Part shown: piece by piece, positions 1,672-18,097 of the stretch | Layout: every line of letters begins with the position of its first letter | Numbering within the stretch: the first letter of the stretch is position 1 | Source: Gammaproteobacteria bacterium | GTDB lineage: Bacteria > Pseudomonadota > Gammaproteobacteria > Arenicellales > Arenicellaceae | Direction of reading: 5' to 3' | DNA: 32,333 nucleotides | Assembly (NCBI GenBank): GCA_017854775.1 | Contig: JAFMHC010000028.1 | Span: 1-32,333, forward strand | The notes under the pieces: generated by a model | What the model was told of the DNA's origin: nothing | Seen by the model: the letters and a program-made list of their open reading frames with translations, nothing else | Database searches by the model: none | Made by a program: the position numbers and the translations under genes

Positions 1672-1727
1672 CGAAGCTGGGCACCTATTGCTAGCGCTAT
1701 GAAGTGCGGAGGACAGACCAGTGTGTA
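1672..1727 (+). repeat. Dispersed repeat, degenerate short copy
   Basis: It starts ACGAAGCTGGGCACC and TATTGCTAGCGCTATG, matching the left half of the other copies (especially 7445-7521, which also has TTGCTAGCGCTAT). It ends with CAGTGTGTAATGAATAG, a worn form of the right end. It is about 20 bases shorter than a full copy because of an internal loss. It marks the left edge of the repeat array, upstream of the first DUF4920 gene. Confidence 0.5.
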
Positions 1728-1843
1728 ATGAATAGACCACGGAAGAATCAAATCGGTCGGCCCCCTTGATTATTTGGCATCACCATATTAAATAATTCAA
1801 TCATGCTAAACTTAAATGAATTTCTATGAGCTCGGGCTTCAAA

Positions 1844-2326
1844 ATGATTAACAAAGTCATACTGTTTTTTACTCTTTCTATTATTGCTCTTAGCACGGCC
1901 AACGCTGACGTAATTCGCCTCTCGAAGCCAGTGCAAAAAGACGCGACGAGTGAGACTTATGGCGAGCCGTTGTCAACGATGCCTCAAGCAGTGGAGTTGA
2001 AAATGCTTTTGACATCACCAGAAGAGCATCTTGATAAATCATTTTCAGTAACCACTCAAGTGGCTAAAGTTTGTCAGAAAAAAGGCTGTTTCTTTATTGC
2101 ACAAGCGGGTTCAGAAACAATCCGAGTGGCTTTCAAGGACTATGGATTTTTTGTACCCACTGATATTGGCGGCAAGACAGTCACGCTTGTGGGTGAGTTG
2201 ATTGCGCATCAACGCACAGCGAAGCAAGCTAAACATCTCTCCAAAGATTTAGGCGAAAACAGTACTCTAGAAAGCGGCTTTACATACGAAATAGTGGCAA
2301 CTTCGGTACGCGTTCCGATTTACTAA
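1844..2326 (+). CDS. DUF4920 family exported protein (copy 1)
   Basis: This is a 160-residue periplasmic protein with a Sec signal peptide (about residues 1-20, ending STANA). The DUF4920 core contains YGEPL, the Cys pair in VCQKKGCFF, RVAFKDYGFFVP and the GK-TLVGEL segment. Members are small, OB-like secreted proteins with no assigned reaction. The two Cys could bind metal or form a disulfide. The frame is open from 1826, but the ATG at 1844 is chosen because the paralogue at 18372 starts at the same residue. The two proteins differ at about 18 of 160 positions. Homology between the loci extends into upstream DNA (from about 1780) and a little past the stop. A dispersed repeat follows at 2382. 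Confidence 0.85.
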   Translation: MINKVILFFTLSIIALSTANADVIRLSKPVQKDATSETYGEPLSTMPQAVELKMLLTSPEEHLDKSFSVTTQVAKVCQKKGCFFIAQAGSETIRVAFKDYGFFVPTDIGGKTVTLVGELIAHQRTAKQAKHLSKDLGENSTLESGFTYEIVATSVRVPIY

Positions 2327-2381
2327 GTCGTGATTAAACGGGGGTAGGCCGCATGCAACCTATTCAAACTATTAATAGCAG

Positions 2382-2458
2382 CCAAGTTTGGCATCCATAA
2401 CTAGCTTCAATAAAGATCAAAGAGTTTGCGTTGTTCTAAATGTGCATGCTCGAGTAAC
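2382..2458 (+). repeat. Dispersed 77-bp repeat, full length
   Basis: The left end is CCAAGTTTGGCATCCATAAC, a worn CTAAGCTGGACACCCATAAC. The middle TAGCTTCAATAAAGATCAAAG matches other copies closely. The right end ATGTGCATGCTCGAGTAAC aligns with ATGTGGGTGCCCAAGTAAG at 14786-14804. It lies between the DUF4920 gene and the TonB-C gene, in the same orientation as both. Confidence 0.7.
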
Positions 2459-2491
2459 AACGATAGCCGTCATTAAAAAACAATAAAGTAG

Positions 2492-3598
2492 ATGAATCAT
2501 ATTATTAAGAGTTTAATCATTGGCTTAATGACCGCATATTTAAGCCAACCGTCTCTCGCAGAAGATCAAGACAATTTGCAGTTAGCGCCTAAAATTCCTT
2601 CTGGTTTAACTAGTGGTAGGCTCATGAAATTAGATACTGAGCTAGGTTATCACCCGCCGAAACCAATTCATAGATCGCCCCCGATTTACCCCATAAGGCA
2701 ACGCAAAAAAACTCAAGAAGGCATGGTTGTTGTTAAGTTTATGGTTGATGAAGAAGGTAAAGTATTTGAGCCTATCGTAATAGAGTCAACCCATTCAGCA
2801 TTTGAGGGCCCTGCTCTTGACGCTGTATTGAAATATCAATACGAAGCGGCACATATAGATGGTAAACCGCTCAAGTCAGTAACCAGCATCCGACTTGTAT
2901 TTAGCATGCAAGATTCTGAAGATGCCGCAGGTCGAAAATTTATCAGCATATATAAAAAAGCGGATAAGGGTATGAACGCTGAGAATCCTGACCAGCAAGA
3001 GCTTAGGAGTGATCTCGACAGGTTGGCCAATGCAAAATATCTTACTAATTATGGTTTAGCCTATCTGTCTATGTTGGAGTACCGATATGCGACTAAGTTC
3101 TTGAGTAAGCAAGAGCAATTGAAATCGTTACGTAAGTTGCTTTTGTTTCAAAACCGTATTGAGAAAGATCGACAATTTCTTGATGAAGCTGCAATCCACT
3201 CTATTAGAATGAACATACTTCAGCTTCTGATCGAGCTTGGATATTATGGAGAGGCCCGAAGCAATTTTTACTGGTTGAATAAGGAGATTCCTAGTGCCGC
3301 TGAACCATTCAATGATGCTATGACGCAAGTGCGAGAAATACTTAGCGGCGATGATGCAATTATGAGATCAGTTGAGCTAAGCGATCGAGGTTATGAATAT
3401 CACGATCTTACTAAGAGAAACTTTGAAATAGATGTAGTTGAGGGTGGAATAGAAAAGCTTAATTTTTATTGCACTCGGAGCTTCGGCACCATGGCGTTCA
3501 GCCCCGATAGTAGCTACCGTGTGCCTGAGAGTTGGGGTGCGTGTGACTTACTAGTGGTAGGTCGCCCCAAAACCAAAGCCAAGTTGTATCAATTTTGA
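2492..3598 (+). CDS. Exported protein with TonB C-terminal domain
   Basis: This 368-residue protein has a signal peptide (about 1-23, ending LSQPSLA). A TonB_C-type domain spans about residues 55-140: PPIYPIRQRKKTQEGMVVV, then FMVDEEGKV, FEGPALDAVLKYQYEAA, and the closing SIRLVFSM strand. The remaining 220 residues are mostly helical and may be TPR-like, with no motif I can name. The TonB domain is normally the C-terminal end of an inner-membrane energy transducer. Here it lies near the N-terminus after a cleavable-looking signal, so a role in energising outer-membrane receptors is doubtful and a periplasmic binding or scaffold role is as likely. The ribosome binding site is weak. No ExbB or ExbD gene is nearby. 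Confidence 0.75.
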   Translation: MNHIIKSLIIGLMTAYLSQPSLAEDQDNLQLAPKIPSGLTSGRLMKLDTELGYHPPKPIHRSPPIYPIRQRKKTQEGMVVVKFMVDEEGKVFEPIVIESTHSAFEGPALDAVLKYQYEAAHIDGKPLKSVTSIRLVFSMQDSEDAAGRKFISIYKKADKGMNAENPDQQELRSDLDRLANAKYLTNYGLAYLSMLEYRYATKFLSKQEQLKSLRKLLLFQNRIEKDRQFLDEAAIHSIRMNILQLLIELGYYGEARSNFYWLNKEIPSAAEPFNDAMTQVREILSGDDAIMRSVELSDRGYEYHDLTKRNFEIDVVEGGIEKLNFYCTRSFGTMAFSPDSSYRVPESWGACDLLVVGRPKTKAKLYQF

Positions 3599-3653
3599 TG
3601 AGCAACTGTGGCCAGCAAACAAGTTCATTAGACAAGCAAAAGCCAGTTCAATT

Positions 3654-3720
3654 TGAAGCTGTAATACTTTAACCAACACTTTATGTGAGAGACAAGGAGC
3701 ACTCAGAAGTACTCAAACGC
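3654..3720 (+). mobile_element. Second relic of the IS left end
   Basis: These 67 bases align nearly end to end with positions 1-68: TGAAGCTGT, ACTTTAAC, ACACTTTA, GAGAGACAA and GCACTCAGAAGTA are shared with few changes and a one-base gap. The orfA start codon and coding region are missing. It is a solo end or the stub of a deleted element, lying between the TonB-C gene and the next exported protein. Confidence 0.65.
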
Positions 3721-3819
3721 CCTAGGTAAGAAAGCCGTTAAATATAGGCTCGCACACAGCAAATAAACTAATACCCAACCCACAACTAACCACCCATCAA
3801 AATAACCGGAGATTACCCA

Positions 3820-4332
3820 ATGAAAAAAATCATTACCCTACTCGTCGCTGGCTCAATATCATTTTCAGCAACCGCTCAACAAGAAAGCATTCTAATGACA
3901 AAGCAACAGTTTTTGCAAACCTATGAAAACATGCTGAATCAGGCTGAAGAGTATGCTCAAAAAGGCAGTTCTATGTCCGACGAAATGATGAAAAAGAAGA
4001 TGTCTGCTGAAGATTACAGTAGGTACAAAGACGAAGAAAAAGAATTTGAAAAACAGCACAACAAGGAACTGGCAAAATGCATCGGCATTGCACCAGAGAA
4101 ATTGGCTAAAGCAAAAGATTCGTTTAAGCCAAAAGCTATGCTTGTGGTAATGAAGCAGTGCTCATCAAAGATTCCAGAGTCTTTTAATATGACGTCACTG
4201 GATTTCACTGAAGAGCCGGCACTTGCAGACTTCAGCGACTGTACCCAAGAAATTATGACTAAACAGACTGGTATCCCAGTTGCTAAGTACGAGAAGTGTG
4301 ATGCTGAGCTGTCAGGCGACAACGATTACTAA
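3820..4332 (+). CDS. Exported protein of unknown function, helical
   Basis: The family is not recognised. The 170-residue product has a short signal peptide (MKKIITLLVAG, cleavage near SATA-QQ at about residue 19). It is followed by a charged helical region rich in Met, Lys and Glu (residues 40-85) and a C-terminal half with four Cys residues (in LAKCIG, MKQCSS, SDCTQE and EKCDAE), likely two disulfides in the periplasm. A good ribosome binding site (CGGAGA) precedes the ATG. A dispersed repeat begins about 45 bases after the stop. The gene stands alone, which suggests its own promoter in 3721-3810. Confidence 0.7.
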   Translation: MKKIITLLVAGSISFSATAQQESILMTKQQFLQTYENMLNQAEEYAQKGSSMSDEMMKKKMSAEDYSRYKDEEKEFEKQHNKELAKCIGIAPEKLAKAKDSFKPKAMLVVMKQCSSKIPESFNMTSLDFTEEPALADFSDCTQEIMTKQTGIPVAKYEKCDAELSGDNDY

Positions 4333-4377
4333 GTAAACATCAATTAATTTGGTCCCTCATTTCATGTAAATTGGTGA

Positions 4378-4455
4378 CTAAGCTGGACACCCATAACTAG
4401 CTTCGATATAGATCAAAAAGTTGGGAAATAACGGGGGCAGGCATGTCAAGAAGCA
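4378..4455 (+). repeat. Dispersed repeat with well-preserved left half
   Basis: The left end CTAAGCTGGACACCCATAAC and the middle TAGCTTCGATATAGATCAAA agree with the consensus. The right half is worn: only GCATGTCAAGAAGC recalls the right end. The 14-mer TCGATATAGATCAA at 4403-4416 has the GAT-N4-ATC core of an FNR/CRP-family site. The copy sits 45 bases after one gene and about 90 before the next. Confidence 0.7.
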
Positions 4456-4543
4456 AGACTTATCATGCCTGGCCCTCGGCCGCGCAAAAGACGCGACCCG
4501 GTTTTAAAGACGTGATAAACAATCGCAGCTCGAGAGAACATGC

Positions 4544-5239
4544 ATGAATAAACCTTTCTGTAAAATATTTTTACTAGTGGCAACACTATTATCTTCTTTA
4601 GCTTTGGCGGAAGAGGATAGAAAACCGCCCGCGTTGTATCGTCCTTCTTTTGTGGTTTTTGATGGAGTCGCTAGCGCTGGAACAGCATTCGTTATTGAGC
4701 ATGATAAGAAATATTATGCTGTAACTGCCCAGCATTTAATTGGTACGGCTGGAGGCCTAAATAAGGACTATTTAGGAAAAGATATGATGACGAAGTTTAA
4801 AAAAGTAACTTATGATCCCGTGTATTCAGGTTATAAGAAGCTTACAAGCGTGACGTTTATTCCAATTAAAAATGCTGAGCCAATCTCGGACAAAACCGCT
4901 AAATATGATATTTTCATTTCGCCAGTGAATACCTTGGATTCAATGCCGTTAACTCTCGCGAAGAGTTCGCTTAAGGTAGGTGATCGAGTAATGCTATATG
5001 CAATAGTTGCGAGTTCAGAAGAGGTCATGCATTTGGCTACAGTTACGAATATTACTGAAGATGAGCTGGTGTATGTATTTGACGACAAAACCATCAACTT
5101 AAGGGCTACAAGTGGTGCTCCAGTCATAAATGCTAAATATCAAGTTGTTGGTATTAACTTAGCTGGCGGCGAAATGGATGATGGTAGTGTTGTAGGGTGG
5201 GCAAATCCACACGGCTCTATCTTAAAACACTTGCCGTAG
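4544..5239 (+). CDS. Exported trypsin-like serine protease
   Basis: This 231-residue protein has a signal peptide (about 1-22, ending LALA). The rest fits a compact chymotrypsin-fold peptidase: GTAFVIEHDKKYYAVTAQHL places the catalytic His at about residue 64, KYDIFIS gives the Asp at about 122, and ATSGAPV gives the Ser at about 190. The usual GNSGG/GDSGG around the Ser is replaced by ATSGAP, as in some trypsin-2-like families. A typical closing segment (VVGINLAGG) follows. It is probably active in the periplasm, or is a degraded homologue with a structural role. The substrate is unknown. GAGAG lies shortly upstream of the ATG. No repeat separates it from the next gene. Confidence 0.75.
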   Translation: MNKPFCKIFLLVATLLSSLALAEEDRKPPALYRPSFVVFDGVASAGTAFVIEHDKKYYAVTAQHLIGTAGGLNKDYLGKDMMTKFKKVTYDPVYSGYKKLTSVTFIPIKNAEPISDKTAKYDIFISPVNTLDSMPLTLAKSSLKVGDRVMLYAIVASSEEVMHLATVTNITEDELVYVFDDKTINLRATSGAPVINAKYQVVGINLAGGEMDDGSVVGWANPHGSILKHLP

Positions 5240-5335
5240 AGACTAATAACAATCATTGTTGAAAATACTAGTAGGTTAGGTTGAGGCTTTTAGTGAAAAA
5301 TGTTTCTATGTTTTTTTTAGTAATTTAGGGAAGAA

Positions 5336-5929
5336 ATGCGGAAACCAATTATATTGTTCTTAGCCATGTTATTGCTCTCTGCTAGCTCGGCTCAGGCTGG
5401 GCTTTTAGATTTAATCCGAAAGTTTGATCCCACATATCTGCGCTCGGTTGATGTAACGGTAAAACTGTCGAGTGAAAAGGATTTGGCCTTCGACGTTCAA
5501 GTTAATAAGGAGTCTTTAGAGACCCGACCCTACTGGGTAGAGGTCAATGCGCCGATACAGAAATCGAAGAAGCATGTGGACGTGACTAATCAGTTTTCAG
5601 TTTGGAACGGTAAGCACTCTGATCTTCATAAATTAAAGTTTAAGGCGGGCGACAAGTTTGAGTTGGATATCACGCCAAACTTTGCGACTTACTGTGCTTA
5701 TATATTTAGCCTGCAAGTTCCGCTTTATGAGGGGATGGTTTCTGACTATAGAATTGACGAGGGTTGTGAGTTGCAAATCTATTTCTCAGGCCCGGGAATT
5801 AAATCTTTGATCACACAAACGCCTTTCCATTGTGGGCTCCTAATGGATAGCCTTGAGCAAGTAGAAGGTGATTGGTATGAAAATAACGAGCTAGAGAGCC
5901 TACCTTTTAGCTGCAGGCAGGTTCTGTAG
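5336..5929 (+). CDS. Exported protein of unknown function
   Basis: The family is not recognised. The 197-residue product has a clear signal peptide (about 1-21, ending SSAQA). A mature chain follows with predicted beta strands and six Cys residues in the C-terminal half (TYCAYIF, EGCELQI, FHCGLL and FSCRQV among them), suggesting a disulfide-stabilised periplasmic fold. A strong ribosome binding site (AGGGAAG, 5327-5333) sits 2 bases before the ATG. The gene follows the protease by 96 bases, so the two may be co-transcribed. A dispersed repeat begins within 10 bases of the stop. Confidence 0.7.
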   Translation: MRKPIILFLAMLLLSASSAQAGLLDLIRKFDPTYLRSVDVTVKLSSEKDLAFDVQVNKESLETRPYWVEVNAPIQKSKKHVDVTNQFSVWNGKHSDLHKLKFKAGDKFELDITPNFATYCAYIFSLQVPLYEGMVSDYRIDEGCELQIYFSGPGIKSLITQTPFHCGLLMDSLEQVEGDWYENNELESLPFSCRQVL

Positions 5930-5934
5930 CCGGC

Positions 5935-6032
5935 AACTAAGCGACAAACTAAGCTGGACACCCATAACTAGCATCGATATATCTCAATGAGCCCTTATAG
6001 GCCTGATAATGACTTGGGCGCTACTACTTAAG
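5935..6032 (+). repeat. Dispersed repeat with duplicated left end
   Basis: A partial left end (CAACTAAGC, 5935-5943) is followed directly by a good one (AACTAAGCTGGACACCCATAAC, from 5947). The middle TAGCATCGATATATCTCAATG is recognisable, and the right side ends in a worn CTTGGGCGCTACTACTTAAG. It lies immediately after the stop codon of the preceding gene. Confidence 0.65.
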
Positions 6033-6162
6033 GTTGGCATTATGATCCTTATACTTGCCTTACCGATTAAGTCGAAAAAGGCAATTAGTCGGCCACACTT
6101 CGTAATAAATGAAGAGCTCACCCGTTCATATAGTTAGTTAAAAACACTCCAGAGAAACCAAT

Positions 6163-6903
6163 ATGCGCAAATCAGTTATAAGCAAATTCGTAGTGCTGAC
6201 TTTAATCGCCCTAGTTAATCCAGCGTATGCTGAGCTTACTGAAAGCGAGTTGACGTCATTAAAAACACTGATCGATAGTGACCACCGCTCAGAGAAAGCG
6301 CGAGCAAGAAATAAATATCGCCACCCATTCGAAACACTCAAGTTTTTTGACGTTAAGTCTAACCAAACCGTGGTAGAAATATGGCCCGGCGGTCAAGGTG
6401 GTTGGTATCGAAGCATTCTTGAGCCGTATCTTGCTCAAAGCGGCAACTACATAGCCGTCCGCTCAAAGGACTCATTTCCAAAACCAGTTAGTAAGGTTCC
6501 AGATAATACAGCCGACCGAGTACTTGTATTTCGCGCTCATGGTTTCATGATTTATGATAAGCCTGCACAGCAATACTTTGACGCGATTTATAAAATGCTC
6601 AAACCTGGTGGGGTTTTCGGTATTGTTGATCACCGAGGAGATGAGGCTGTACCACAAGACCCAAAAGGCGTCAGTGGTTATGTTAATCAATCGCATGTAT
6701 TGATGCTTGCCAAGAATGCTGGCTTTAAGCTACTAGCAAGTGCAGAAATAAACGCTAACTCTGCCGATATTAAGGACTACCCTAGAGGTCTATACTCACT
6801 GCCACCGTCATTGAAAGGCTCTTCTTTTAACAAAGAACTTCGTGAAAAAGTACTTAAGATTGGCGAGAGCGACCGCATGACTTTACAGTTTGTTAAGCCT
6901 TAG
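6163..6903 (+). CDS. Exported SAM-dependent methyltransferase (COG4798-like)
   Basis: This is a 246-residue member of the predicted methyltransferase family COG4798, which is unusual in carrying a signal peptide (here about residues 1-23, ending NPAYA). Family landmarks are RARNKYRHPFETLKFFDV, the cofactor-loop segment VVEIWPGGQGGWYRSILEPY, FDAIYKMLKPGGVFGIVDHR, AGFKLLASAEINAN and the closing GESDRMTLQFVKP. The protein appears slightly shorter than its relatives between the YSLPPSL segment and the end. Substrate and methyl donor supply in the periplasm are unknown, so the enzymatic role is inferred. The ribosome binding site is weak. A repeat follows within 10 bases of the stop. Confidence 0.85.
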   Translation: MRKSVISKFVVLTLIALVNPAYAELTESELTSLKTLIDSDHRSEKARARNKYRHPFETLKFFDVKSNQTVVEIWPGGQGGWYRSILEPYLAQSGNYIAVRSKDSFPKPVSKVPDNTADRVLVFRAHGFMIYDKPAQQYFDAIYKMLKPGGVFGIVDHRGDEAVPQDPKGVSGYVNQSHVLMLAKNAGFKLLASAEINANSADIKDYPRGLYSLPPSLKGSSFNKELREKVLKIGESDRMTLQFVKP

Positions 6904-6909
6904 TATCGC

Positions 6910-6960
6910 TATGCTGGACACCCATAACTGGCTTCGATATAGATCAAAGAGTTGGCGTAA
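6910..6960 (+). repeat. Dispersed repeat, left two thirds only
   Basis: ATGCTGGACACCCATAACTG is followed by GCTTCGATATAGATCAAAG and AGTTGGCGTAAC, close to the consensus. The right inverted end is not recognisable after 6960. The 14-mer TCGATATAGATCAA at 6934-6947 is identical to that at 4403-4416. The copy starts only 7 bases after the methyltransferase stop. Confidence 0.7.
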
Positions 6961-7077
6961 CTTGGCTTGCCCCTAGAGCCCAGTGAACGGAGTGAATACC
7001 AGAAAATCGATGGGAACAAATGAACCAATTATTGGGTGACCTCAGCTGATTTTAGTTTAAGTGTATATATGATTAAT

Positions 7078-7395
7078 ATGAAAATTGCTTTGAGTTATAC
7101 CAATAGTGCTGGAACGACTCTTGATCTTTCATTACCTGATGGAAATCAGTTACAGAATTTAATGGAGATCGTCAGAGATTATGGTTTTGAGGATTGGGGC
7201 GAATGCAGAGGGCGAGCTTGGTGCCGTACATGCCATGTTCGCCTTATTTCAAACACGAGTATCGAAATTAACTCTCATGAAGAATTCGCGCTAAACGAAT
7301 TAGAAACGCGTTATTCAAACAGTAGACTGGCCTGCCAAATAGCAATAGACTCGACGCTGGACGGTGCGAGACTTATTCATGCTGGAGATAATTGA
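7078..7395 (+). CDS. [2Fe-2S] ferredoxin
   Basis: This is a 105-residue soluble ferredoxin. The cluster ligands are C43-x5-C49-x2-C52 (in GECRGRAWCRTCHV) with C86 in SRLACQI, the spacing of adrenodoxin or Isc-type ferredoxins rather than the C-x4-C of plant type. Residues 1-30 form the usual beta hairpin (MKIALSYTNSAG, LDLSLPDG) and the segment EEFALNELE precedes the last Cys as in the family. The frame is open from a GTG at 7036, with ATGs at 7069 and 7078. None has a clear ribosome binding site, so the start is a guess from family length. No reductase or partner oxygenase is next to it, so its electron acceptor is unknown. Confidence 0.82.
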   Translation: MKIALSYTNSAGTTLDLSLPDGNQLQNLMEIVRDYGFEDWGECRGRAWCRTCHVRLISNTSIEINSHEEFALNELETRYSNSRLACQIAIDSTLDGARLIHAGDN

Positions 7396-7428
7396 GTTAG
7401 TAAGATTGCCCTCTATCAATAAAGTCCG

Positions 7429-7521
7429 AAACTAAGCTGGAGAAATTAAGCTGGACTCCCATTGCTAGCGCTATATAAATCATAGGCTTAGCCTTGGCCT
7501 TGGGTTGGGTGTCCGAATAAG
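7429..7521 (+). repeat. Dispersed repeat, full length with doubled left end
   Basis: A first left end (AACTAAGCTGGAG, from 7430) is followed by a second (ATTAAGCTGGACTCCCATTG, from 7445). The middle CTAGCGCTATATAAATCATAG leads to a clear right end, TTGGGTGTCCGAATAAG (7505-7521). The outer 16-17 bases of the 7445-7521 unit form an imperfect inverted repeat. This is one of the best copies for defining both ends. Confidence 0.75.
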
Positions 7522-7655
7522 ACCGGATCTTTGCGTTGATCTTGATAATTCAATCTTATAAAGTGGGTGTTCAGTATTACCTTTATAAAAATGTTCGTGC
7601 TTAGCGTAAAATTAAGTCGGTGTAAGATAATCTCGTAATCTTTGGGTGTTAGGAT

Positions 7656-8108: not shown

Positions 8109-8132
8109 TTTGACTGTCTAACCAAAAAACTT

Positions 8133-8238
8133 GGCAACTAAGCTGGATGGCAACTAAGTTGGATGGTAACTAAGCTGGGCACCCAAAACTCTTTTTATAT
8201 AAATCAGAGTGGTGATTACTATGAGTGCCTGCGTAAAC
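8133..8238 (+). repeat. Dispersed repeat with triplicated left end
   Basis: Three tandem 16-base units (8133-8148, 8149-8164, 8165-8180) read GGCAACTAAGCTGGAT, GGCAACTAAGTTGGAT and GGTAACTAAGCTGGGC. The third continues into the body: CACCCAAAACT, TATATAAATCAGAG, and a right end ATGAGTGCCTGCGTAAAC (8221-8238). The element therefore shows local growth of its left end. The transposase remnant starts immediately after the right end. Confidence 0.72.
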
Positions 8239-8239
8239 G

Positions 8240-8407
8240 ATGAAGCCCTTAACTATTGTTGAGTATGAGGCGCCTACAGATGATAGAGGCGATGCCATAG
8301 TTTTGGCTTATCTAAGCGGCGGATATACCCAAAAAGAACTCGGGTAGCACTTTGGTTTATACTATGCTCGTATAAGTCACACTGTAGGACTGGCAAAAGA
8401 TAAGACT
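8240..8407 (+). pseudogene. C-terminal remnant of a REP-associated (RayT-like) transposase
   Basis: One frame reads MKPLTIVEYEA, DDRGDAIVLAYLSGGYTQKELG, a TAG stop at 8345, then HFGLYYARISHTVGLAKDKT. This resembles the small helix-turn-helix tail found at the end of REP-associated tyrosine transposases, which commonly end in a KDKT/KGKT-like motif. The catalytic HUH domain is absent and the frame is interrupted, so it is a relic. The sequence after KDKT (ACTTGGTCC) resembles the hairpin arm at 239-246 (CTTGACCCC), hinting at the same family. Assignment is from memory of the motif and is moderate. Confidence 0.55.
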
Positions 8408-8466
8408 TGGTCCTACCAGATTCTAAATACTGTATTTTTAACTCTTATGTTTTATTAAGGATAATT

Positions 8467-9171: not shown

Positions 9172-12100
9172 TCAGAACTTGAACTGTAGCCCCAGCATTA
9201 AAGTCGAATACTCAGTATCGAAATCAGTGACATTTCGATAGTCATATCGAAGGTTCCATGACCATCGATCGTTAAGACACACACCCAATGAGGCACCAAC
9301 ATTGTAGCCAACGCCACTCTTACTGTCTTGGTCTTCATAGTTACCAATTCCCGCATGTATCGCGGGTCGTGGGCAGAAGTCGTTACTAAAGTTGTATTTC
9401 ACTTCAGCAGACAGGTGCGTGAAAGAAAAATCATCCCCACCGAGGGTGTTGTCAAAAGTATCGTGCCCTAGAAAGAAACCTGCCGCTAGAGTGTTTGTGA
9501 ACTGGCGCTGCACTTGCAACCCAAGCGCGGTGTTGCCATCAGCAATCGAATCAAATGGTGAATGGGGTTCTGAGGCACCAACAAATACCGCTACGGAATA
9601 GTCTTCAGCACGTGGCAAGCAACCACATCCGCCAGGAGGTAATGGGTAGCCACCTTCAGGTCCATCTGGTTGGTCGTACTTTGGATACTGAAACGATAAC
9701 ATGGTATAGCGGGTGAATGGGTCACCACTGTTGTCGGTACCACTGGCTTGAGCGTAAGCAAGGTAGGCTCCACGCTCTAACGTGGTGTGTTTATGACCAT
9801 AAATACCATCGTTAGCCGCACCATCGTCATTAGCACCATCATCCAGAAAAGTGATCATGGTCTTGTCGCCGTCAGGGTCACGAAGTTCAGCGGTTACTGT
9901 AGCGCCAGCTATCGGTGCATTGTCGACTAATACCAAACGCATACGCGCATCAATACCACTTGGTTGCAAGAATTCAACATCGACAGGGCCAGCACGCAAC
10001 GCTAAAATCGACGGTGCCGACGCCACTACTGAAAATTCTAGATCATTAGAATTGAAATCCTCTTGCCCCTCGAAGGTGAACAGTGAATAGTTCCAAGTGC
10101 CTGGTTCGGGTTGTTGAATGCGAAACGATTTATGGGTGCTTGCGCTATAGCTTTCAATATTAGGGGGAGCGTGTGCGATTGCAGTAGCACTTGGGTCCGA
10201 AAGCGTCAATGTCGGCAAATCGGGCGTCGGGCCATCAGGGTTATTCCAGTGCATAACGACCGTCATCCATTCAAGCCCGGCAGGCACTTCGAAGGTATCA
10301 GAGCGTATACAACCGGCACCAAGGCCTATGCAGGGCGGTAAGTCTTCGCGATAGAAAAATCGTTGCTCGTCTCGAATATCGGCGTCAATACGTTTATAGA
10401 TATCTGACAAGCGACTTAGTAGAAAGTAAGAGCCCTCACCTGTGAGTAAATTAACCCAGGTGCCTCCAGTGCTCTCAGCGATCTCCTGAAGAAAAGGGTC
10501 GTCAGCATCACCACCGACCGAGATAGTATGCAATCTAACAGGTGGGTCTGCCGCCGCGATACTGCTTTCAACATCCGCTTTATATCGAGGGTCACGATTT
10601 TCTTTGCCATCGGTTATCAATACGATATCCCTAGTAATGGGAGACAATATAGCTGCATCGTTCATAATTCGAAGCGCTTCTTGTGCTGGCGCACCAATCG
10701 AGGTTTCACGCATCGGTGGCACTGGAGTTGGCCATACATTACTAATATCGCTTCGCATCGCGATTCGGTTTGCAGCATTCAACGAGCTAAAAGCAGGCCC
10801 TTCTATACGCACTGTTTCAGGAATAATATCGACGTTGCCGTTGTCATCAACGTCACCTAGATATTGAAAACTTAGGGCGCCAAAACGATCCTCACTGCTT
10901 GAAAGGTCTACAAAGAGCTCTCCAGCAGCAACGGCTGCCTGCATCTTTTCAGGATCGGCTGTATTGTCTACCCGTAACATACTGGTGGTTCGATCGATGG
11001 CGATGACCCTATCAAGTGGAACCGCTTCTTCGTAACAAATAGAGCTTGCTTCCACATCGAATAACTCGGGAAATGCGGTCATTTGTACGCGCAGGTCAAA
11101 ACAAGTCCGACCAGCAACAATCTGTTGGCCGGGGCGAAACACTAACCAATTTTCATTACCAATTCGGCCTATATTTATAATTCGCTCAGCACCAAATGGT
11201 GTGCCGTCAACTTCAAACTGAAGATCGGAAGGAATCATGTCAAGGTTAGGGCCTTGCAACCGTATTAGAATTCTTGGGTCAGCATCCTGCGACCGCACAT
11301 TTGTGGGTAACTGCGTGGTCGGTTCAACTATATTTAAGGCGCTCATATTAGTGAATAACTGATTCGGCACGCAACCAAAACAGCCTTTGTCCTGTCCATC
11401 GCCGCCAGCCACATAAACATCCAAGTCTCCATCAAGGTCGTAGTCGATAAAATCGGCGGATAAGCGCTGATAGTTTCCATGGCCTGGCAATGGGTCGGTT
11501 CCACCGAACTCAACAAAACTACCGTCCCCGTTATTTCTCCATATGCGTACTTGACCATTATTGCCTCCATCAATCGTAACCGCGCTAATATCTATATCAC
11601 CATCAAGATCAATATCTCCGAGCTCAACATCGTAAAATGAACCCGCTGCTGCATTGCTCAATAGGGTCTCCGAAAAAACGCTTGGGGTACCTCCGGAGTT
11701 GTTCAAAAACACAATGACCGTATTGCTTCCAGCTAATACGAAATCATCGAAACCATCGGCGTTAAAGTCAGCAGAGCCGCCAGCTAAGGAGGTTGGAAAC
11801 ACTGTGGATGATGCCGTAAAGGCTGGTAAATCTTCACCATCGTTTAACCATAATTTACCCGGGACACCGTTCTCATTTACGGTGAAAATATCTAGGCTAT
11901 TATTGTCGTCAGCATTGAGAAAGAATACATCGTGCGTAGAGCGGTCTGCGTCAGTTTCATCAGACGCTGCTAACTTAGGCGTGAGCAAGGTGAAGTTAAA
12001 GCTATCGTCCTGGCCTATAAAGACCGCAGTGGTAGATATTTGAGCACCTGCCGCGTTGCAGATATTGCCAATGCGTTCAGTCACCGCAAAATCTAGTAAA

Positions 12101-13047
12101 CCGTCATTATTTAAATCTCCGACGGCAATATCGTCAGGACATAAATCTAAATTAGCGGTGAAGTCTGGTGCTGATAAATCAAAATAGTTATCCTCTCTTC
12201 CACGATTACGGTACACCGAAATACGCCGTCCGCCATCTGGTGACTCTGTGCGTATGAGGTCAGGCAAATTATCAGAATTTAAATCGGCAAAGTCAGAGTC
12301 ATAGCTAACAAAGCCGTCTCGCGGGCCTACTATAGTCGAAGTGAAGCTACCCGAACCCGTATTGCGGCGCACAATAACATCGGTACTATTGTCGTCATTG
12401 TTGGAGTTCGAATCAAAGATATCCGGAAAGCCGTCGTTATCCAAATCTGCAACGTCTGCATCTTTGGTGCGTCCAAGATTTTCATCAGGGTCTCCTAAAG
12501 CTCCATCTTGATCTCGATCGGCTATAATTTGAGTACGTTGAACGTAGGCAAGTGTATCAATAGCGTTAGAACCGCGCCGCGCAGCCAACTCATCAGTAGT
12601 AATGAGGGTCCATGTGGCCGCTGCGTCTTCAACTTGAATAGTGAAAGGCCCCGCTGGTAATACTTGAGCACCGCCGCCGCCCAAAAAACCCGATGGCAAG
12701 CGAAATTGAATTAGTTCATCACGCCAAAGCTCAATTTTACTTACCGGTACTTCAACGCTGCTTGAAACCTCAATGAGTGTTACCGTGCCAGGGTTGCAAG
12801 ATGCAGGCGAACAAAAGTCAGAACCGCGAATCGAAACTACCTCTCCCACCCGTTGCCTAGACGGTTCGAATTCACTAATCGTCTGTGCTTGCAAATAGCC
12901 ACTGACGAAAATAAACCCAAGTATTAAAATCTTCAAAAACTGAAAAAAATAAGCACTTACTGAATAGAAATTCGGTGTTAACCACTTCGATGTCACATGA
13001 GGTGAAGTTGCTGAAAGCGCCTGCGACATAGATGTTGAACTTAACAT
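9172..13047 (-). CDS. Giant surface protein: IPT, FG-GAP repeats, vWA, outer-membrane barrel
   Basis: This 1291-residue envelope protein has a long N-region and a hydrophobic signal at about 34-53, with likely cleavage near LQAQ. Order of parts: an IPT/TIG-like beta domain (57-150); six or so FG-GAP/VCBS-type calcium loops (170-555; e.g. DLDNDGFPDI, DLNNDGLLDF, DLDGDLDVYV); a second beta domain (570-670); a von Willebrand A domain (680-895) with MIDAS D685-x-T687-x-S689 and ITDGKEN; two beta-sandwich domains (900-1120); a Pro/Gly/Cys linker; and a C-terminal region (1150-1291) with alternating strands ending in LGLQFKF, as in small outer-membrane barrels. I infer an adhesin or binding platform that carries its own anchor. 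AGGAGT (13053-13058) fixes the start. It is the only intact minus-strand gene of the array. Confidence 0.82.
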   Translation of the reverse strand: MLSSTSMSQALSATSPHVTSKWLTPNFYSVSAYFFQFLKILILGFIFVSGYLQAQTISEFEPSRQRVGEVVSIRGSDFCSPASCNPGTVTLIEVSSSVEVPVSKIELWRDELIQFRLPSGFLGGGGAQVLPAGPFTIQVEDAAATWTLITTDELAARRGSNAIDTLAYVQRTQIIADRDQDGALGDPDENLGRTKDADVADLDNDGFPDIFDSNSNNDDNSTDVIVRRNTGSGSFTSTIVGPRDGFVSYDSDFADLNSDNLPDLIRTESPDGGRRISVYRNRGREDNYFDLSAPDFTANLDLCPDDIAVGDLNNDGLLDFAVTERIGNICNAAGAQISTTAVFIGQDDSFNFTLLTPKLAASDETDADRSTHDVFFLNADDNNSLDIFTVNENGVPGKLWLNDGEDLPAFTASSTVFPTSLAGGSADFNADGFDDFVLAGSNTVIVFLNNSGGTPSVFSETLLSNAAAGSFYDVELGDIDLDGDIDISAVTIDGGNNGQVRIWRNNGDGSFVEFGGTDPLPGHGNYQRLSADFIDYDLDGDLDVYVAGGDGQDKGCFGCVPNQLFTNMSALNIVEPTTQLPTNVRSQDADPRILIRLQGPNLDMIPSDLQFEVDGTPFGAERIINIGRIGNENWLVFRPGQQIVAGRTCFDLRVQMTAFPELFDVEASSICYEEAVPLDRVIAIDRTTSMLRVDNTADPEKMQAAVAAGELFVDLSSSEDRFGALSFQYLGDVDDNGNVDIIPETVRIEGPAFSSLNAANRIAMRSDISNVWPTPVPPMRETSIGAPAQEALRIMNDAAILSPITRDIVLITDGKENRDPRYKADVESSIAAADPPVRLHTISVGGDADDPFLQEIAESTGGTWVNLLTGEGSYFLLSRLSDIYKRIDADIRDEQRFFYREDLPPCIGLGAGCIRSDTFEVPAGLEWMTVVMHWNNPDGPTPDLPTLTLSDPSATAIAHAPPNIESYSASTHKSFRIQQPEPGTWNYSLFTFEGQEDFNSNDLEFSVVASAPSILALRAGPVDVEFLQPSGIDARMRLVLVDNAPIAGATVTAELRDPDGDKTMITFLDDGANDDGAANDGIYGHKHTTLERGAYLAYAQASGTDNSGDPFTRYTMLSFQYPKYDQPDGPEGGYPLPPGGCGCLPRAEDYSVAVFVGASEPHSPFDSIADGNTALGLQVQRQFTNTLAAGFFLGHDTFDNTLGGDDFSFTHLSAEVKYNFSNDFCPRPAIHAGIGNYEDQDSKSGVGYNVGASLGVCLNDRWSWNLRYDYRNVTDFDTEYSTLMLGLQFKF

Positions 13048-13407
13048 ATTAAACTCCTTTTATGTTTGAACGTACTTGGTTAAACTAGAAATTGAGCATC
13101 GACTACCAAGGGTTAGGCCCATCTGAAAATGTGCCGAATTTCTTCGATACAATATTTATTTCCACTTTTAATTCACCCATCACCCTGCTGTATGCGCGTC
13201 AATCGATCGTCAACAATATGTTAAATATCTGTGAAAGGCTCAAGCAGATAATCAATTAAAAGTCTTACTAGGGCAGGCACGTGTAGAGATGTTAAAGTTT
13301 TACAGATAGCCTCGACGTCTAAGAAATCGTTTTTGTCGATTTAACAAACGGCGGCAAAAATTTAGCGGCCATCAACTTGGGAGTGTCCCCGAACGCCTTG
13401 GTTTTAC
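13048..13407. other. Intergenic region upstream of the giant protein
   Basis: These 360 bases hold no convincing open frame. They must include the promoter of the minus-strand giant gene, but I cannot fix a -35/-10 pair. No repeat copy is seen until 13408. Confidence 0.3.
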
Positions 13408-13510
13408 GAGCTAGACAACAACCAAGCTAGACAACAACCAAGCTGGACACCCAACTGAGTTGGGCGCCCAACTAAGCCAACTGAGTTGAGCGCCCATAAC
13501 TAGCTTCACC
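13408..13510 (+). repeat. Dispersed repeat with strongly amplified left end
   Basis: About six tandem left-end units of mostly 15-19 bases can be read, from GAGCTAGACAACAAC (13408) and CAAGCTAGACAACAAC through CAAGCTGGACACCCAAC, TGAGTTGGGCGCCCAAC and a short TAAGCCAAC to TGAGTTGAGCGCCCATAAC. The last continues into TAGCTTCACC. The right part of the element is lost. Divergence between units created a perfect 14-bp palindrome, GTTGGGCGCCCAAC (13459-13472). This is the most extreme case of end amplification in the window. Confidence 0.7.
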
Positions 13511-13636
13511 AGCTGCTGAGAAATAAAGCACAGTGGCATCTAAAACAATTCTTTATAATACAAGCTGTTGATCAGTTGCCTTACAGGCTGTTGTCTGTGA
13601 GTCATCATTTAATTGAATAGTTTGGTTGAGGTTTTT

Positions 13637-14053
13637 ATGAAAGTGTTGGGTTTTGAGGGTGTTGTTATTCGTTTCGTTTTTGCCTTGGTGCTTGTCTTTG
13701 CCACTTATAATCCGTCGGCGTATTCCTATTTCCATTGGGCTGAAGGCTCGTTTCCACAGTTTACTCCCGCGCTCGCGATCTGCGGCTTATTTCTGATTAT
13801 CTCTTGGGGCATCTATTTGCGTGCAACTTTTCGGTCGCTTGGCGTTATTGGTCTTTTATTGGCCGCTGCCTTTTTTGCTAGTTTTGTCTGGCTTTTTTAT
13901 GATCTCGGGTGGCTTCAGGCAGACAATGCCGGAGCAATGATGTGGGTGGTACTTGTGATCGTGTCGCTGTTGTTGGCTATTGGTATGTCGTGGTCGCACA
14001 TTCGTCGTAGACTGACTGGGCAGGTTGATATTGATGATGTTGATGATAATTAA
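13637..14053 (+). CDS. DUF6524 family integral membrane protein
   Basis: This is a 138-residue inner-membrane protein with four hydrophobic segments (about residues 10-28, 42-60, 68-90 and 100-122). The start VIRFVFALVLVFATYNPSAYSYFHW matches the signature I associate with DUF6524 (Arg before helix 1, then TYNPSxYSYxHW). The C-terminus is basic then acidic (IRRRLTG, DIDDVDDN) and cytoplasmic by the positive-inside rule. The function is unknown. The frame is open from 13613, but GAGG at 13629-13632 supports the ATG at 13637. A worn repeat copy begins at the stop codon. Confidence 0.72.
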   Translation: MKVLGFEGVVIRFVFALVLVFATYNPSAYSYFHWAEGSFPQFTPALAICGLFLIISWGIYLRATFRSLGVIGLLLAAAFFASFVWLFYDLGWLQADNAGAMMWVVLVIVSLLLAIGMSWSHIRRRLTGQVDIDDVDDN

Positions 14054-14133
14054 GCGAATAGTCGAATCCATTGAGCACTAGTTTTAAAACAAAGAGTTGA
14101 TGTTGGTCTTTATAAGTGTCCCGATGAATTGTC
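14051..14133 (+). repeat. Dispersed repeat, degenerate copy
   Basis: ATTAAGC, then CCATTGAGCACTAG, AACAAAGAGTTGATGTTGG, and TATAAGTGTCCCGATGAATT align in order with the consensus middle (ACTAGCTTCAATATAGATCAAAGAGTT) and right end. The left inverted end is mostly lost. Its first bases overlap the stop codon of the DUF6524 gene. Confidence 0.45.
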
Positions 14134-14201
14134 TTCAAGTGTTTATATTCCTTTCCCAGCAAGAACTAACTTTTAGTATTGAATTATTATGAGGGTTTAC
14201 A

Positions 14202-14651
14202 GTGGTAAATTTTAAAAGCGATATTTCTATATTTTGGTCTGAGAGCGTTCTGTATATAGCCATTTACTCAATATTTGCATTGATTGTTTGCTTTATATTT
14301 GCTGCCCTGGAGTTATATAACCAATCGACAAACGTAGCGTTTAGTCGGGTAGCGATTAAAGCGGCAGCACTGACGATTTTCGTGATTTTATTGTTTACGG
14401 TATCCTTATTCATTGTGAGTTGGAAATCGTCCTTATTCGGTGGGGAAATAATTACTAATATTGTATTGGCTACGATTTGGTTTGTTTTGTCGTATTTATT
14501 AAATAATGCATTAATAGCTTGGTGTGGTCTAAGTTTTGAAAAGAGTGTTTTTTATACTTATTTGCCTGTCGTTATTTTAATGTCACCATTTATCATATTT
14601 ATCATATTTAATATATTTGTTTTATTGCTGGGAAGTGCTTGGAAAAATTGA
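14202..14651 (+). CDS. Integral membrane protein of unknown function
   Basis: The family is not recognised. The 149-residue product is very hydrophobic, with four predicted helices (about 14-37, 50-72, 82-105 and 117-142) and few charged residues. The start is GTG at 14202, supported by GAGGG at 14191-14195. The DNA is more AT-rich than its neighbours. It lies 148 bases after the DUF6524 membrane protein on the same strand with a worn repeat between. Nothing in the sequence shows whether the two proteins interact. Confidence 0.65.
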   Translation: MVNFKSDISIFWSESVLYIAIYSIFALIVCFIFAALELYNQSTNVAFSRVAIKAAALTIFVILLFTVSLFIVSWKSSLFGGEIITNIVLATIWFVLSYLLNNALIAWCGLSFEKSVFYTYLPVVILMSPFIIFIIFNIFVLLLGSAWKN

Positions 14652-14668
14652 TGTTATTGCCAATAAAC

Positions 14669-14804
14669 AACTAAGCTGAACACCAATAACTGGCTTCAAT
14701 ACTAAGTTCATTAAGTGGATGAAGCTCACTAAGTGGACACCCATTGCTAAATTCAACATAGAGCAAAGAAACGGCGTCGGTTTTAATGTGGGTGCCCAAG
14801 TAAG
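14669..14804 (+). repeat. Two adjacent dispersed repeats, the second full length
   Basis: A first left part (AACTAAGCTGAACACCAATAAC, then TGGCTTCAATA) starts near 14669. After a second partial start (ATTAAGTGG) a full unit runs 14728-14804: ACTAAGTGGACACCCATTGC, TTCAACATAGAGCAAAG, GGCGTCGGTTTTAATG and the right end TGGGTGCCCAAGTAAG (14789-14804). This copy defines the right inverted end best. From 14805 to 15098 no gene or clear motif is seen, only a 46-codon open stretch without a start codon. Confidence 0.75.
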
Positions 14805-15098
14805 AATTCGTCTTGAATTCACAATTCAGGACGCAGCACCTTTTCTAAAAGAAAAATTCATCAGATAGAGGATAACTATCCAGTCGCGCTCCTTTCTAGA
14901 GAGTGATGACGTTTTAGAAAAATCGTTGGTCACTCTTATCGACCAGCGATGCTTAGTTAGCTGGCGAGCCGGTATCGGCAAGTGGTTATTGCCCGAATTG
15001 CTCGCTGCTGTGTACTAATACTGTTGTACAACCTGCTGCATTGATTCGACGGGATAGACATCTTATGTTCGATTTCTTTGCCAACACGAGAAAAAATA

Positions 15099-15644
15099 AT
15101 GAAACAAACGATTGTTCTAGCACTCTTGGTTCTGTGGTCTATGTCATCTTCTGCGTTGGAGATAGGATCTATCGCCCCTGATTTTACTCTGCAAGGCTCG
15201 GATGGCAAAACATATAGTTTATCGGACTTTCGAGGCAAGCAATCAGTTGTGCTTGCTTGGTTCCCAAAAGCCTATACAGGAGGGTGCACAATTGAATGTA
15301 AGTCGCTTTCTGAGAATGGCCATCTACTGAAAAAATTCACGGTCACTTATTTTATGGTAAGTGTTGACCCGATTGAGAAAAATATAGGGTTTGCTCAGCA
15401 GCAAGAAGCGGACTTCCCATTGCTTAGTGACCCAACTACGAACACAGCACAGCAGTACGGTGTGCTGAGGGAAAACGGTACCGCCGCTCGACACACGTTT
15501 TATATAGGCCGGGATGGTAAAATTTTGGCCATCGATAGAAATGTAAAACCAGCAACCTCAGCGGAAGATATGGCCACAATGCTGGCTGAGTTGGAAACAC
15601 CTCTTGTGGATACACAACTAAGCTCAACACCCATAACCAACTAA
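15099..15644 (+). CDS. Exported Bcp/AhpC-type peroxiredoxin
   Basis: This 181-residue thiol peroxidase has a signal peptide (about 1-20, ending SSAL), so it acts in the periplasm. It would reduce peroxides with a thiol donor. The active-site motif is P56-x3-T60-x2-C63 (PKAYTGGC), with a second Cys at 67 (CTIEC) in the position expected for a Bcp-like resolving Cys. Other landmarks are [39 protein letters not shown] and [11 protein letters not shown]. The frame opens at 15078, but ATG 15099 starts the signal peptide. The last ten codons are supplied by a dispersed repeat: the reading frame ends inside it. Confidence 0.85.
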
Positions 15645-15717
15645 GCTGGATACCCATAACTAGCTTCAATATAGAGCAATGAATTGGCGTTGATTTTAAT
15701 GAGTGTGTCCAAGTAAG
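15615..15717 (+). repeat. Dispersed repeat, best full copy, overlapping a gene end
   Basis: A first left end (CAACTAAGCTCAACACCCAT, 15615-15634) lies inside the peroxiredoxin gene. A second follows (CAACTAAGCTGGATACCCAT, from 15639) and continues through TAGCTTCAATATAGAGCAATG and TTGGCGTTGATTTTAATG to the right end GTGTGTCCAAGTAAG (15703-15717). It is the most regular full-length unit. Confidence 0.78.
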
Positions 15718-15747
15718 AACGCTCGTTTAATTAGCGTACCCGCACTC

Positions 15748-16404
15748 TCATAGGCTAGGGCGGTAATCTGTACCTCTGGCGATTTGCGACCACTGACGAA
15801 TATGTGGCGCAGTGTCGTCTAGCCAGCGGGCCTGGCTATTTTCAATAACTAAAATTTCCTCCCACTTTGCACCTACTTCACCCTGGTCCGCGTGCGGTTT
15901 TACTAACCACAAACCATCATGTGCTGGATGGTCAGAGGTCTGCATATTGTTCCATAATGGGCTGCTCCGGCCTAAACCACGTTGCGCAAGGCTATCCTTA
16001 AACTTAAACCATGTTAGCGATACCGCATCGAAGCCTTGCAACCTCAGGTTAAAGGGGATGTTGGGTGATTTGATAGCTCGATGACCCAAGACCTCGCCTG
16101 GATGCTTTATGTGAACCGGCTCATAGCCTGCTGATGGCAGGCTGTCGCGATACTGAGCAAGGTGTTGCATCATCTGTTGATGGTCTGCGTTCTCAGCAAA
16201 ACAAAAGCTGTACGAGGTGCCGACTAAAAAGCGGGAAAACAGCGGGGCCGCATCTAGGATTACACTGTCGCCTTTCGCTAAGGTTTTTGATTTTGGGAAA
16301 AAGTTACCTACTTTCCACTTGCCTGGCAATGCCGTACGCTCGCCAAACAGCACAACGGGTAAGTGAAAAAAAGAATCTGCACCTTCTTTTTGATATGCGC
16401 TGAC
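15748..16404 (-). pseudogene. Decayed M24-family metallopeptidase (Xaa-Pro peptidase-like)
   Basis: Read on the minus strand, the frame runs back to a stop at 16405-16407 and encodes AYQKEGADSFFHLPVVLFGE, RTALPGKW, AKGDSVILDAAPLF, SYSFCFAEN, HPGEVLGHRA and WEEILVIENSQARWLDD. These are recognisable pieces of M24 (pita-bread) peptidases. The N-terminal part is missing, the first usable start is a GTG at 16353, and the step from LAQYRDS to SAGYEPVH looks like an in-frame internal deletion. Several metal-ligand regions cannot be placed, so activity is unlikely. It lies between a repeat copy and a second broken gene. Confidence 0.6.
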
Positions 16405-16562
16405 CTAGGCTTCATTTGTCCTGCTATTTGAGAGGTATTCATCTACGTCACAGCAAGAACTTCGGGGCCGTAGGACAGTCATCAGGTCAACTAGACATCT
16501 GCCACGAAGATGCAGTATTGTCACACTATTCAATTTATGTCAATTTTATCGCTAACCACATT

Positions 16563-17995
16563 ATGATCATAGTAAGAGCTGTTTGTTTCTGGCTTATCTT
16601 TCCAACGCTGTTGTTCTCAACCGTATCTCAGGCCAAGGTGCGCAATGAGACAGTAACCTTGGACGTCTACTGCGGTGCTGGAGACGAGATCGACTTTAAT
16701 GGGTTGGCTTATTTCTGTTATGTCGATCAATCGAAGGTCGCGCAGCTCTATCGCGCCAATGGACAGCAGACGAGCTGGCAGGCTATGACCGGCTTCAAAA
16801 CTGGTTCGGCTACCGGATTGCGTGTCGTGTTCAAAACTGAGCGCGCACTTTTTTTCACCGTATTGCGCGGTAACAAGTGGCATCTGTTTAAAACAAATGG
16901 TCAGCCGGTGACCATCAGGATCTGGGTGTGTATGAGGGGAGTGGCAGAACGCTTGATCTAATTGCCAGCGATTCCGGCATTCATTATTTGCGTTCGGGCA
17001 ACGCCCTTTTCGCGGCTAATGAAGATACGGCACAAATAAAGTTTATTGCCTGGACCACGCGAGATGCTGGACTCTATCGATCCGATGTGGTGTACCAAAA
17101 CGGGTATCTCTATTACGTGACCTCAAATTCGCCAGGTTACTGGAATTTGGTTGAGCGTGTTAACAAGAACGGTAAGCGAGAGTTATTGCGAGAATTTCCA
17201 GGTGATACAGATACTGTCATATCTCCAATTATTACCAGTGCTGGTTTTACCTTTGCCAATCGCGTTGGACAGTTTTTCGTCAACGCTATGGGTGCAGTAC
17301 AGGAGAAAAATGTCGTTGGATTTCCGGTAGGAAAAGTGGGTTCAACATTCTTAGTTTGGAGTTACGGCGGTGAACTCGGAGCGACCAAAGACTTTGATGT
17401 GGTCACGCCGCTGGGGAGTTCCGACTTAGATTTTACCTACATACAATTTGTTGAACTTGGAAATTCCGCAATTACTCGTTGCTGCTCAGGTCAGTACGTT
17501 GTCTCCGATGGGACCGCATCGGGTACCGTTACTGCTCCGGGCACACCGCTTTTTGATACTGTTCAAGAGGACGTCGGGATGCTGGTGAAACGGGGCACTA
17601 ACCAGCTTCACTTTCTTGATAAAGACCGCCCCCGGCAGTCAACATTAATAGCTCAGTTTGACGGTGACATTGCTTACGCTCTGGTAAGAGATCAAAGCTC
17701 TTACTATGTGATAACCGAAAATGAAGAAGGGGGCACTTCGAAAGTATGGCGAGCGTACCGCGATGGCCGCAGGCCAATGCTTTTACGCAGCACAACTAGG
17801 CTCATCTCATTTGCCAGAACCGAAGGGCAGCGGTTGTACTTTGGTGAACAAGCCTTTGGCTTAAGCTTTGACAAGGCGGACCTTTGGCACAGTGATGGCA
17901 CACCAGGTTTCACTTACGTGCTCAAGGATACGACGATTGAGTTACCACGGCTAGATTGGCTCCCAGCGGTTCTAGACATTATCAATGGCGACTGA
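16563..17995 (+). pseudogene. Frameshifted exported protein, possible beta-propeller
   Basis: Two overlapping frames together encode about 476 residues: a signal peptide from ATG 16563 (ending SQA), then repeating strands such as AQLYRANGQQ and WHLFKTNGQPV, and after a one-base frame change near 16911-16920 the continuation LGVYEGSGRTLDLIA to the end. Motifs such as DLWHSDGTPG resemble the ELWxxDGT repeats of bacterial beta-propeller-like proteins. The join needs a -1 shift, so one base was probably lost, by mutation or sequencing error. No slippery heptamer with a following structure is evident. The protein would be periplasmic or on the surface. The function is unknown. Confidence 0.6.
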
Positions 17996-18018
17996 CAAGC
18001 AGTGAACTAGGTTGAGGA

Positions 18019-18097
18019 ACTAAGCTGGACGCGCTTAGCTAGCTTTAATATATATCAAAGATTTGTCGTTGCTCTTAACTGGGTGTTCACGTATATG
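18019..18097 (+). repeat. Dispersed repeat, full length, last copy of the array
   Basis: It runs from ACTAAGCTGGACGCG through TAGCTTTAATATATATCAAAG and TTGTCGTTGCTCTTAACTG to the right end GGGTGTTCACGTATATG. Its core TTAATATATATCAA (18043-18056) retains an FNR-like dyad. It begins about 25 bases after the preceding stop. Downstream (18098-18371) no further copy or gene is seen before the second DUF4920 gene, only the diverged upstream flank that this gene shares with copy 1. Confidence 0.72.

Follow-up and report, generated by a model that had tools for sequence, protein, structure and literature searches.

Short repeats behind accessory genes in an Arenicellaceae contig and their probable link to HuH/Y1 transposase elements with paired ends

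A contig from a gammaproteobacterium of the family Arenicellaceae (GenBank assembly GCA_017854775.1, contig JAFMHC010000028.1), analysed over its whole length of 32,333 nucleotides and called the window here, carries about a dozen copies of a short repeat packed into 17 kb, and it raises the question of what such repeats are, what moved them, and how they came to lie one behind another among the genes. The initial annotation had proposed a family of diverged, intergenic, MITE-like repeats, and the family is real: a profile built from the five fullest copies (2380, 7446, 14728, 15639 and 18018) matches the window at 13 places with E<0.01, every one of them on the + strand, and the whole genome holds 16 matches at E<=0.01. 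The same repeat families are also shown by repeat finding in the window, the best profile matches outside the five builders being those at 6909 (2e-11), 4378 (2e-10), 5948 (4e-8) and 8169 (3e-5) and the weakest those at 13480, 1672, 14077 and 14670 (E 0.001-0.01). Beyond 18.1 kb of the window there are zero profile matches at E<0.01. The copies are the following.

1671..1698, + strand: left end only (profile E=0.0016)
2379..2460, + strand: near full-length copy, behind the DUF4920 gene with its stop at 2326
4375..4424, + strand: left part only, behind a gene ending at 4332
5946..6004, + strand: left part only, behind a gene that ends at 5929, with an additional left end at 5934-5946
6906..6962, + strand: left part only, behind a gene ending at 6903
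7445..7526, + strand: near full-length copy following the Fer2 gene, with an additional left end at 7430-7443
8167..8236, + strand: degenerate copy following the TerB gene, with two additional left ends at 8134-8165
13420..13537, + strand: left ends repeated in tandem several times and followed by a degenerate left part
14062..14119, + strand: very degenerate piece, behind the DUF6524 gene (profile E=0.005)
14669..14710, + strand: left end, behind a gene ending at 14651
14726..14808, + strand: near full-length copy; its bottom strand folds at z -2.97, the only one of seven strands below -2
15638..15720, + strand: near full-length copy and best match; extra left end at 15614-15637, and an upstream ORF (15078-15644) that runs into the copy
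18017..18098, + strand: near full-length copy, behind a gene ending at 17995

The copies are unequal: only five (2379, 7445, 14726, 15638 and 18017) reach the right end and are near full length, at about 80 nt, the copies at 4375, 5946, 6906 and 8167 retain about the left 50-70 nt, those at 1671, 13480 and 14669 retain less than that, the site given as 14051 is a very degenerate piece, and several copies start at extra left ends. The repeats are short, non-coding and dispersed, with imperfect terminal inverted repeats that are strongest in the copies at 14726 and 15638 and in one copy of a genome of the same genus (G012b), and the middle of the repeat may resemble an FNR box. Single-strand folds of seven strands (five copies, with both strands of two) gave z from -2.97 to 0.74, and the window has zero matches to Rfam at the gathering threshold. 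The comparison with a MITE is apt as far as length, lack of coding capacity and imperfect inverted ends go, but the likely parent is a HuH/Y1 element and not an ordinary DDE insertion sequence. Inspection by eye of the sequences flanking the full window copies showed no target duplications, and since the likely parent encodes a HuH/Y1 single-strand transposase, none would be expected.

Searches of the whole genome and of related genomes, as the initial annotation had proposed, returned matches both outside the contig and in other genomes. A sequence model of 11 copies, which took in nine of the ten contig matches and two of the six elsewhere, finds 16 matches at E<=0.01 in the 4.86-Mb genome, ten of them in the 32-kb contig and six outside it (two in C368 and one each in C84, C216, C291 and C157). 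At the C84 site (L040 3380-4045) a ParD/ParE-like pair is followed by an attC-like sequence that runs straight into the repeat copy, the pair and the attC-like sequence both being recognised by eye. Among 369 genomes of the class, five, the window's own included, matched the repeat at E<=0.001; weak matches in G208, G211, G109 and G033 were judged by eye to be chance. In G012, two copies occur at a spacing of 604 nt; one follows a gene, the other overlaps the end of the next gene, and right halves of the repeat stand in contig C19 (L089) beside a tRNA-Leu gene, with a tandem right end, and in contig C21 (L090) beside an apparent 3' part of tRNA-Leu, where the whole gene was not found.

The description of the repeats as intergenic understates their placement, which is directly 3' of stop codons and in one orientation. 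At the eight measurable sites, defined by a clear + strand ORF upstream and a profile match, the left end begins 4-54 nt (mean 27) after the stop codon; uniform placement in the same gaps predicts a mean of 91 nt, and 4 of 20000 simulations gave a mean as low as the 27 observed. The count leaves out the copy at 15614, into which the upstream ORF runs, the degenerate piece at 14062, and the sites at 1671, 13480 and 14726, which have no such ORF or directly follow another copy. Genes of the array encode, among others, DUF4920, TonB_C, trypsin-like, Fer2, TerB, lumazine-binding-like, DUF6524 and AhpC/TSA proteins. Opposite to the array direction, positions 9172-13047 on the minus strand encode a 1291-aa protein with FG-GAP, VWA-like and outer-membrane-barrel features. 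Two further stretches, 1-231 and 3654-3711, are similar to each other (79% over 58 nt), the first being followed by a short stretch that reads as an HTH_Tnp_1 transposase start.

One gene followed by one repeat, in a single orientation and among accessory genes, is also the layout of a chromosomal integron, in which the repeats would be attC recombination sites that each close a one-gene cassette. An integron integrase (396 bits) is encoded in the genome (G000:C285, L009 9007-10008), cut off at the contig end, and integron integrases occur in 13 of 18 genomes of the genus at E<=1e-60. The start of the C285 integrase abuts the contig end, and its cassette array is not on that contig. The one large array of the genus examined in numbers, a chromosomal integron in G007:C1 (L058) with 32 copies of its site in 17.6 kb, has 36 GGCGTTA, 35 TAACAAG and no GGACACCCA on the + strand, against 2, 3 and 5, respectively, in the first 18.3 kb of the window. 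Because the genus's own array is without the repeat core and the window has little of that array's site, identity with attC was rejected, and we regard the integron reading as very improbable; six of the seven single strands folded at z above -2, and copies also lie beside the tRNA-Leu gene of G012 and at scattered single sites. A strict search for R'/R'' boxes (GTTRRRY/RYYYAAC) was uninformative, because control arrays passed it in only 4 of 31 cases.

Larger, transposase-bearing elements sharing the repeat's end core, which the initial annotation had predicted, were found. The candidate parent elements are about 1.25 kb long, code for a HuH/tyrosine (Y1) REP-associated transposase of about 325 aa, and carry an end core that reads RGACACCCA upstream and TGGSTGTCY downstream. 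The lead to them came from one of the five matching genomes, G404, an unrelated member of the same class, in which RGACACCCA left ends, often in tandem, stand behind stop codons and are paired with TGGGTRTCC right ends, an anatomy like that of the window. A 328-aa protein is encoded by three elements of G404, which have AGACACCCAT on the upstream side of the gene and TGGGTGTCT on the downstream side, and elements of about 60 nt in the same genome have the left end of the transposase element itself (ACACCCATTNTAATATTTGACAA) at their start and TATGGGTG at their close. On G404:C69 (L102, reverse strand 6133-6193 and 7392-7452), short elements combine the transposase left end with a TTGACA promoter-like box, and one of them lies directly ahead of a gene.

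Relatives of the candidate parent occur in many marine Gammaproteobacteria, at up to 15 transposase matches per genome; whole or partial copies are present in 9 of 18 genomes of the window's genus, and the window's own genome carries relatives in C80, C350 and C142. Each of the 11 aligned proteins has a match to NCBIfam REP_Tyr_transpos at E<=0.01, although the two that were fully scored reach 37.8 and 40.9, below the 80-bit cut-off, and the one protein scanned against Pfam Y1_Tnp (from G404) scores 22.3, just below the 23-bit cut-off; a PDB profile search gave no match. H71 and H73 are invariant in the 11 proteins, and intact proteins read to the stop are 315-328 aa long. Among 80 named loci, the best 80 of at least 590 found, a loose core pattern, whose frequency by chance was not controlled, picked out the core upstream of the gene in 50 cases and downstream of it in 54.

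Compared with GGGGWSAS, a motif of published transposases of the TIRYT type (PMC3733652), some transposase ends read GGGGACAC (for example L148), many read AGACACCC or TGGACACCC, and the intact-looking copy in C80 has GGACATCC, not GGACACCC. The right end of the transposase element of G004, read backwards, matches the left 41 positions of the repeat (E 8.6e-5), whereas the right ends of L124, L148 and L212 match the right end of the repeat in the forward direction, so that the two assignments of ends contradict each other. Inside the core, window repeats and the transposase ends of the genus gave no convincing alignment (z mostly <2, best 2.6).

A second point of resemblance lies in the tandem ends, or stutter. 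Extra left ends, 12-26 nt apart, open the window copies listed at 5935, 7429, 8133, 13408 and 15615; when 80 nt around each of 13 hand-chosen left-end cores were searched, an exact direct repeat of >=10 nt was found near 4 of the 13, compared with 16 of 1000 random windows, the stutter at this 10-nt threshold being confined to three loci. Transposase element ends were scored with a stricter core pattern and an 80-nt span in 103 loci (G013 C10 was entered twice), and direct repeats of >=10 nt were present at 28 of 64 scored left ends and 14 of 48 right ends (42/112 together), as opposed to 14 of 1030 controls. The Fisher p of 3e-34 for this difference is optimistic because the loci are related. 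Cases come from Microbulbifer, Marinomonas, Shewanella, Colwellia and Sedimenticola loci, among others, and the repeated unit at the transposase ends is often host flank joined to the element's first letters. The stutter at transposase ends is the same oddity as the tandem left ends of the window.

These observations bear on another explanation, by which the repeats would derive, as a MITE, from an ordinary DDE transposon that has no relation to the Y1 elements, with GGACACCCA shared by chance. In its favour, the inner sequence of the repeats does not align with the Y1 element ends, and in the better copies the inverted repeat reaches a length of about 15 nt; the extended ends of the repeat read CTAAGCTGGACACCCATAAC...GTGTCCAAGTAAG. 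A core of nine nucleotides is nevertheless shared, the ends stutter, the copies form same-orientation clusters without target duplication to the eye, and in G404 elements of similar anatomy coexist with short elements that bear the Y1 element's left end; a DDE origin is therefore unlikely in our judgement.

Orientation within clusters is a further property that repeats and transposase elements have in common. Neighbouring transposase pieces within 20 kb of each other, a count that includes pieces of broken copies, have the same orientation in 24 of 24 pairs; with pieces <700 nt apart merged, the figure is 14 of 14 pairs from five loci, ten of the pairs coming from two loci of Microbulbifer thermotolerans (G430; L273, L288). 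There, as many as seven transposase copies within about 15 kb are for the most part interleaved with antisense genes, six of the element right ends lie 13-78 nt from a gene's stop, and others overlap the stop or lie up to about 220 nt from it; the arrangement of genes and elements is the layout of the window. By eye, some of the genes in these arrays resemble Rhs-type C-terminal pieces. At 33 of the 44 right ends scored across 60 loci, and at 29 of the 40 left ends, the neighbouring ORF runs antisense to the transposase gene. In the window's genus, elements run against the GC skew at 18 of the 20 sites (two-sided p 4e-4; among the 18, one skew is near zero), but there is no overall bias at 40 named sites compared over flanks of up to 20 kb (15/40 negative; 11/30 where skew is strong), and the short flanks of the 80 named loci give 33 negative and 36 positive among the 69 with enough flank. 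Orientation relative to skew looks uniform in some lineages, in either direction, a grouping that was made after seeing the data.

The alternation of genes and elements could mean that the units are gene cassettes, in which case the transposase system would move or gather host genes along with an element end and so build alternating arrays. The window, parts of G404 and Microbulbifer thermotolerans all show accessory genes alternating with elements, over short distances between gene and element end, and the density of the window copies points the same way. The window's one duplicated gene, however, a DUF4920 gene present at both ends of the array (1780-2344 and 18308-18870, 87% identical), has homology boundaries that do not coincide with any repeat, the gene present at two places in G404 is not bounded by element ends on its left side, and the same picture would be expected if insertion were tolerated only between dispensable genes. 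Gene capture is possible, and the two duplications examined give it no support; we hold the cassette reading to be improbable. In its fullest form, it would have Y1 elements building integron-like arrays, in one orientation and one per accessory gene behind the stop, that carry or recruit genes, the window being an old array whittled down to 80-nt ends while the arrays of Microbulbifer thermotolerans keep their transposase genes. This proposal too has a slim chance of being right; if it were, the alternation of genes and elements would itself be an array-building process.

The repeats are instead probably non-autonomous, MITE-like elements of about 80 nt that were mobilised by a TIRYT-type HuH/Y1 REP-associated transposase with the core RGACACCCA / TGGSTGTCY. 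The window's genome and genus contain transposase elements, a common end core lies at roughly fixed distances from the gene, stutter is found at transposase ends and at some window repeats, and clusters of both kinds keep one orientation. The link between repeat and transposase is likely on the strength of the shared end core, the stutter and the context, and the inner sequence does not settle it; the strongest bridges are the stutter and the elements of about 60 nt in G404 with their transposase left end. By analogy with Y1 transposases in general, the enzyme would nick and rejoin one DNA strand at the core, and a single-stranded copy would move into strands exposed near replication forks, which would fix its orientation; IS608 and ISDra2 target the lagging strand template (PMC6006769). 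Tandem ends may come from repeated nicking or slippage at the junction, insertions behind stop codons would be the tolerated (or targeted) ones, and many copies would afterwards have lost their right halves.

The initial annotation recognised no described family, and literature searches likewise brought up no paper describing this repeat or the stutter, as judged from titles and the openings of abstracts, with most subscription journals and bioRxiv outside their scope; a full-text search for the core letters returned only unrelated papers among the matches listed. A related kind has nonetheless been published: TIRYT genes, which encode Y1 tyrosine transposases, are flanked by terminal inverted repeats and not by REPs, forming TIRtrons, and in some TIRYT systems TIR repeats are also dispersed, forming dimers or clusters (Di Nocera et al. 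2013, PMC3733652). The proposed parent would resemble these in having a Y1 (HuH) transposase between inverted repeats at regular distances, to the extent that a loose pattern with an uncontrolled chance rate can tell, and the TIRYT motif GGGGWSAS (PMC3733652) resembles (G)GGGACAC. Sequence and hosts are different, and the passages of that paper that treat TIRYT do not describe a stutter that takes in flank and end, an alternation with genes in a single orientation, or two-ended derivatives of about 80 nt with this sequence.

REPs, REPINs and BIMEs are short non-autonomous repeats that are likewise attributed to Y1 (RAYT) transposases (PMC3116915, PMC2817692, PMC8266576), and REPs lie mostly downstream of coding regions and have a GTAG foot (PMC3733652). 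The window copies differ from REPs and REPINs in lacking a stable hairpin (they fold weakly), in their low copy number and in their strong clustering, and no GTAG foot was seen in them by eye. With integron cassette arrays they share one gene, one repeat and one orientation, but sites of the genus's attC type are absent and a fold is mostly lacking. The Y1 elements may offer a route to one-gene-one-repeat arrays without an integrase. Similar enzymes, as judged by length and copy number, are those of TnpA_Y1 subclass 2.3, which have a median of 325 aa and number several per genome in Alteromonadales and Chromatiales (Quentin et al. 2018, PMC6006769); the present proteins, of 315-328 aa, also occur in multiple copies per genome. 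The account of that subclass in PMC6006769 reports no identifiable REP-like secondary structures beside its genes, whereas the proposal made here is of a paired end core together with a short-repeat relative. A Y1 class described without REP-like flanks (PMC6006769) appears to have paired ends, a tandem-junction signature in many genera and short non-autonomous relatives, and the paired ends and short relatives offer testable substrates for a poorly understood group of enzymes.
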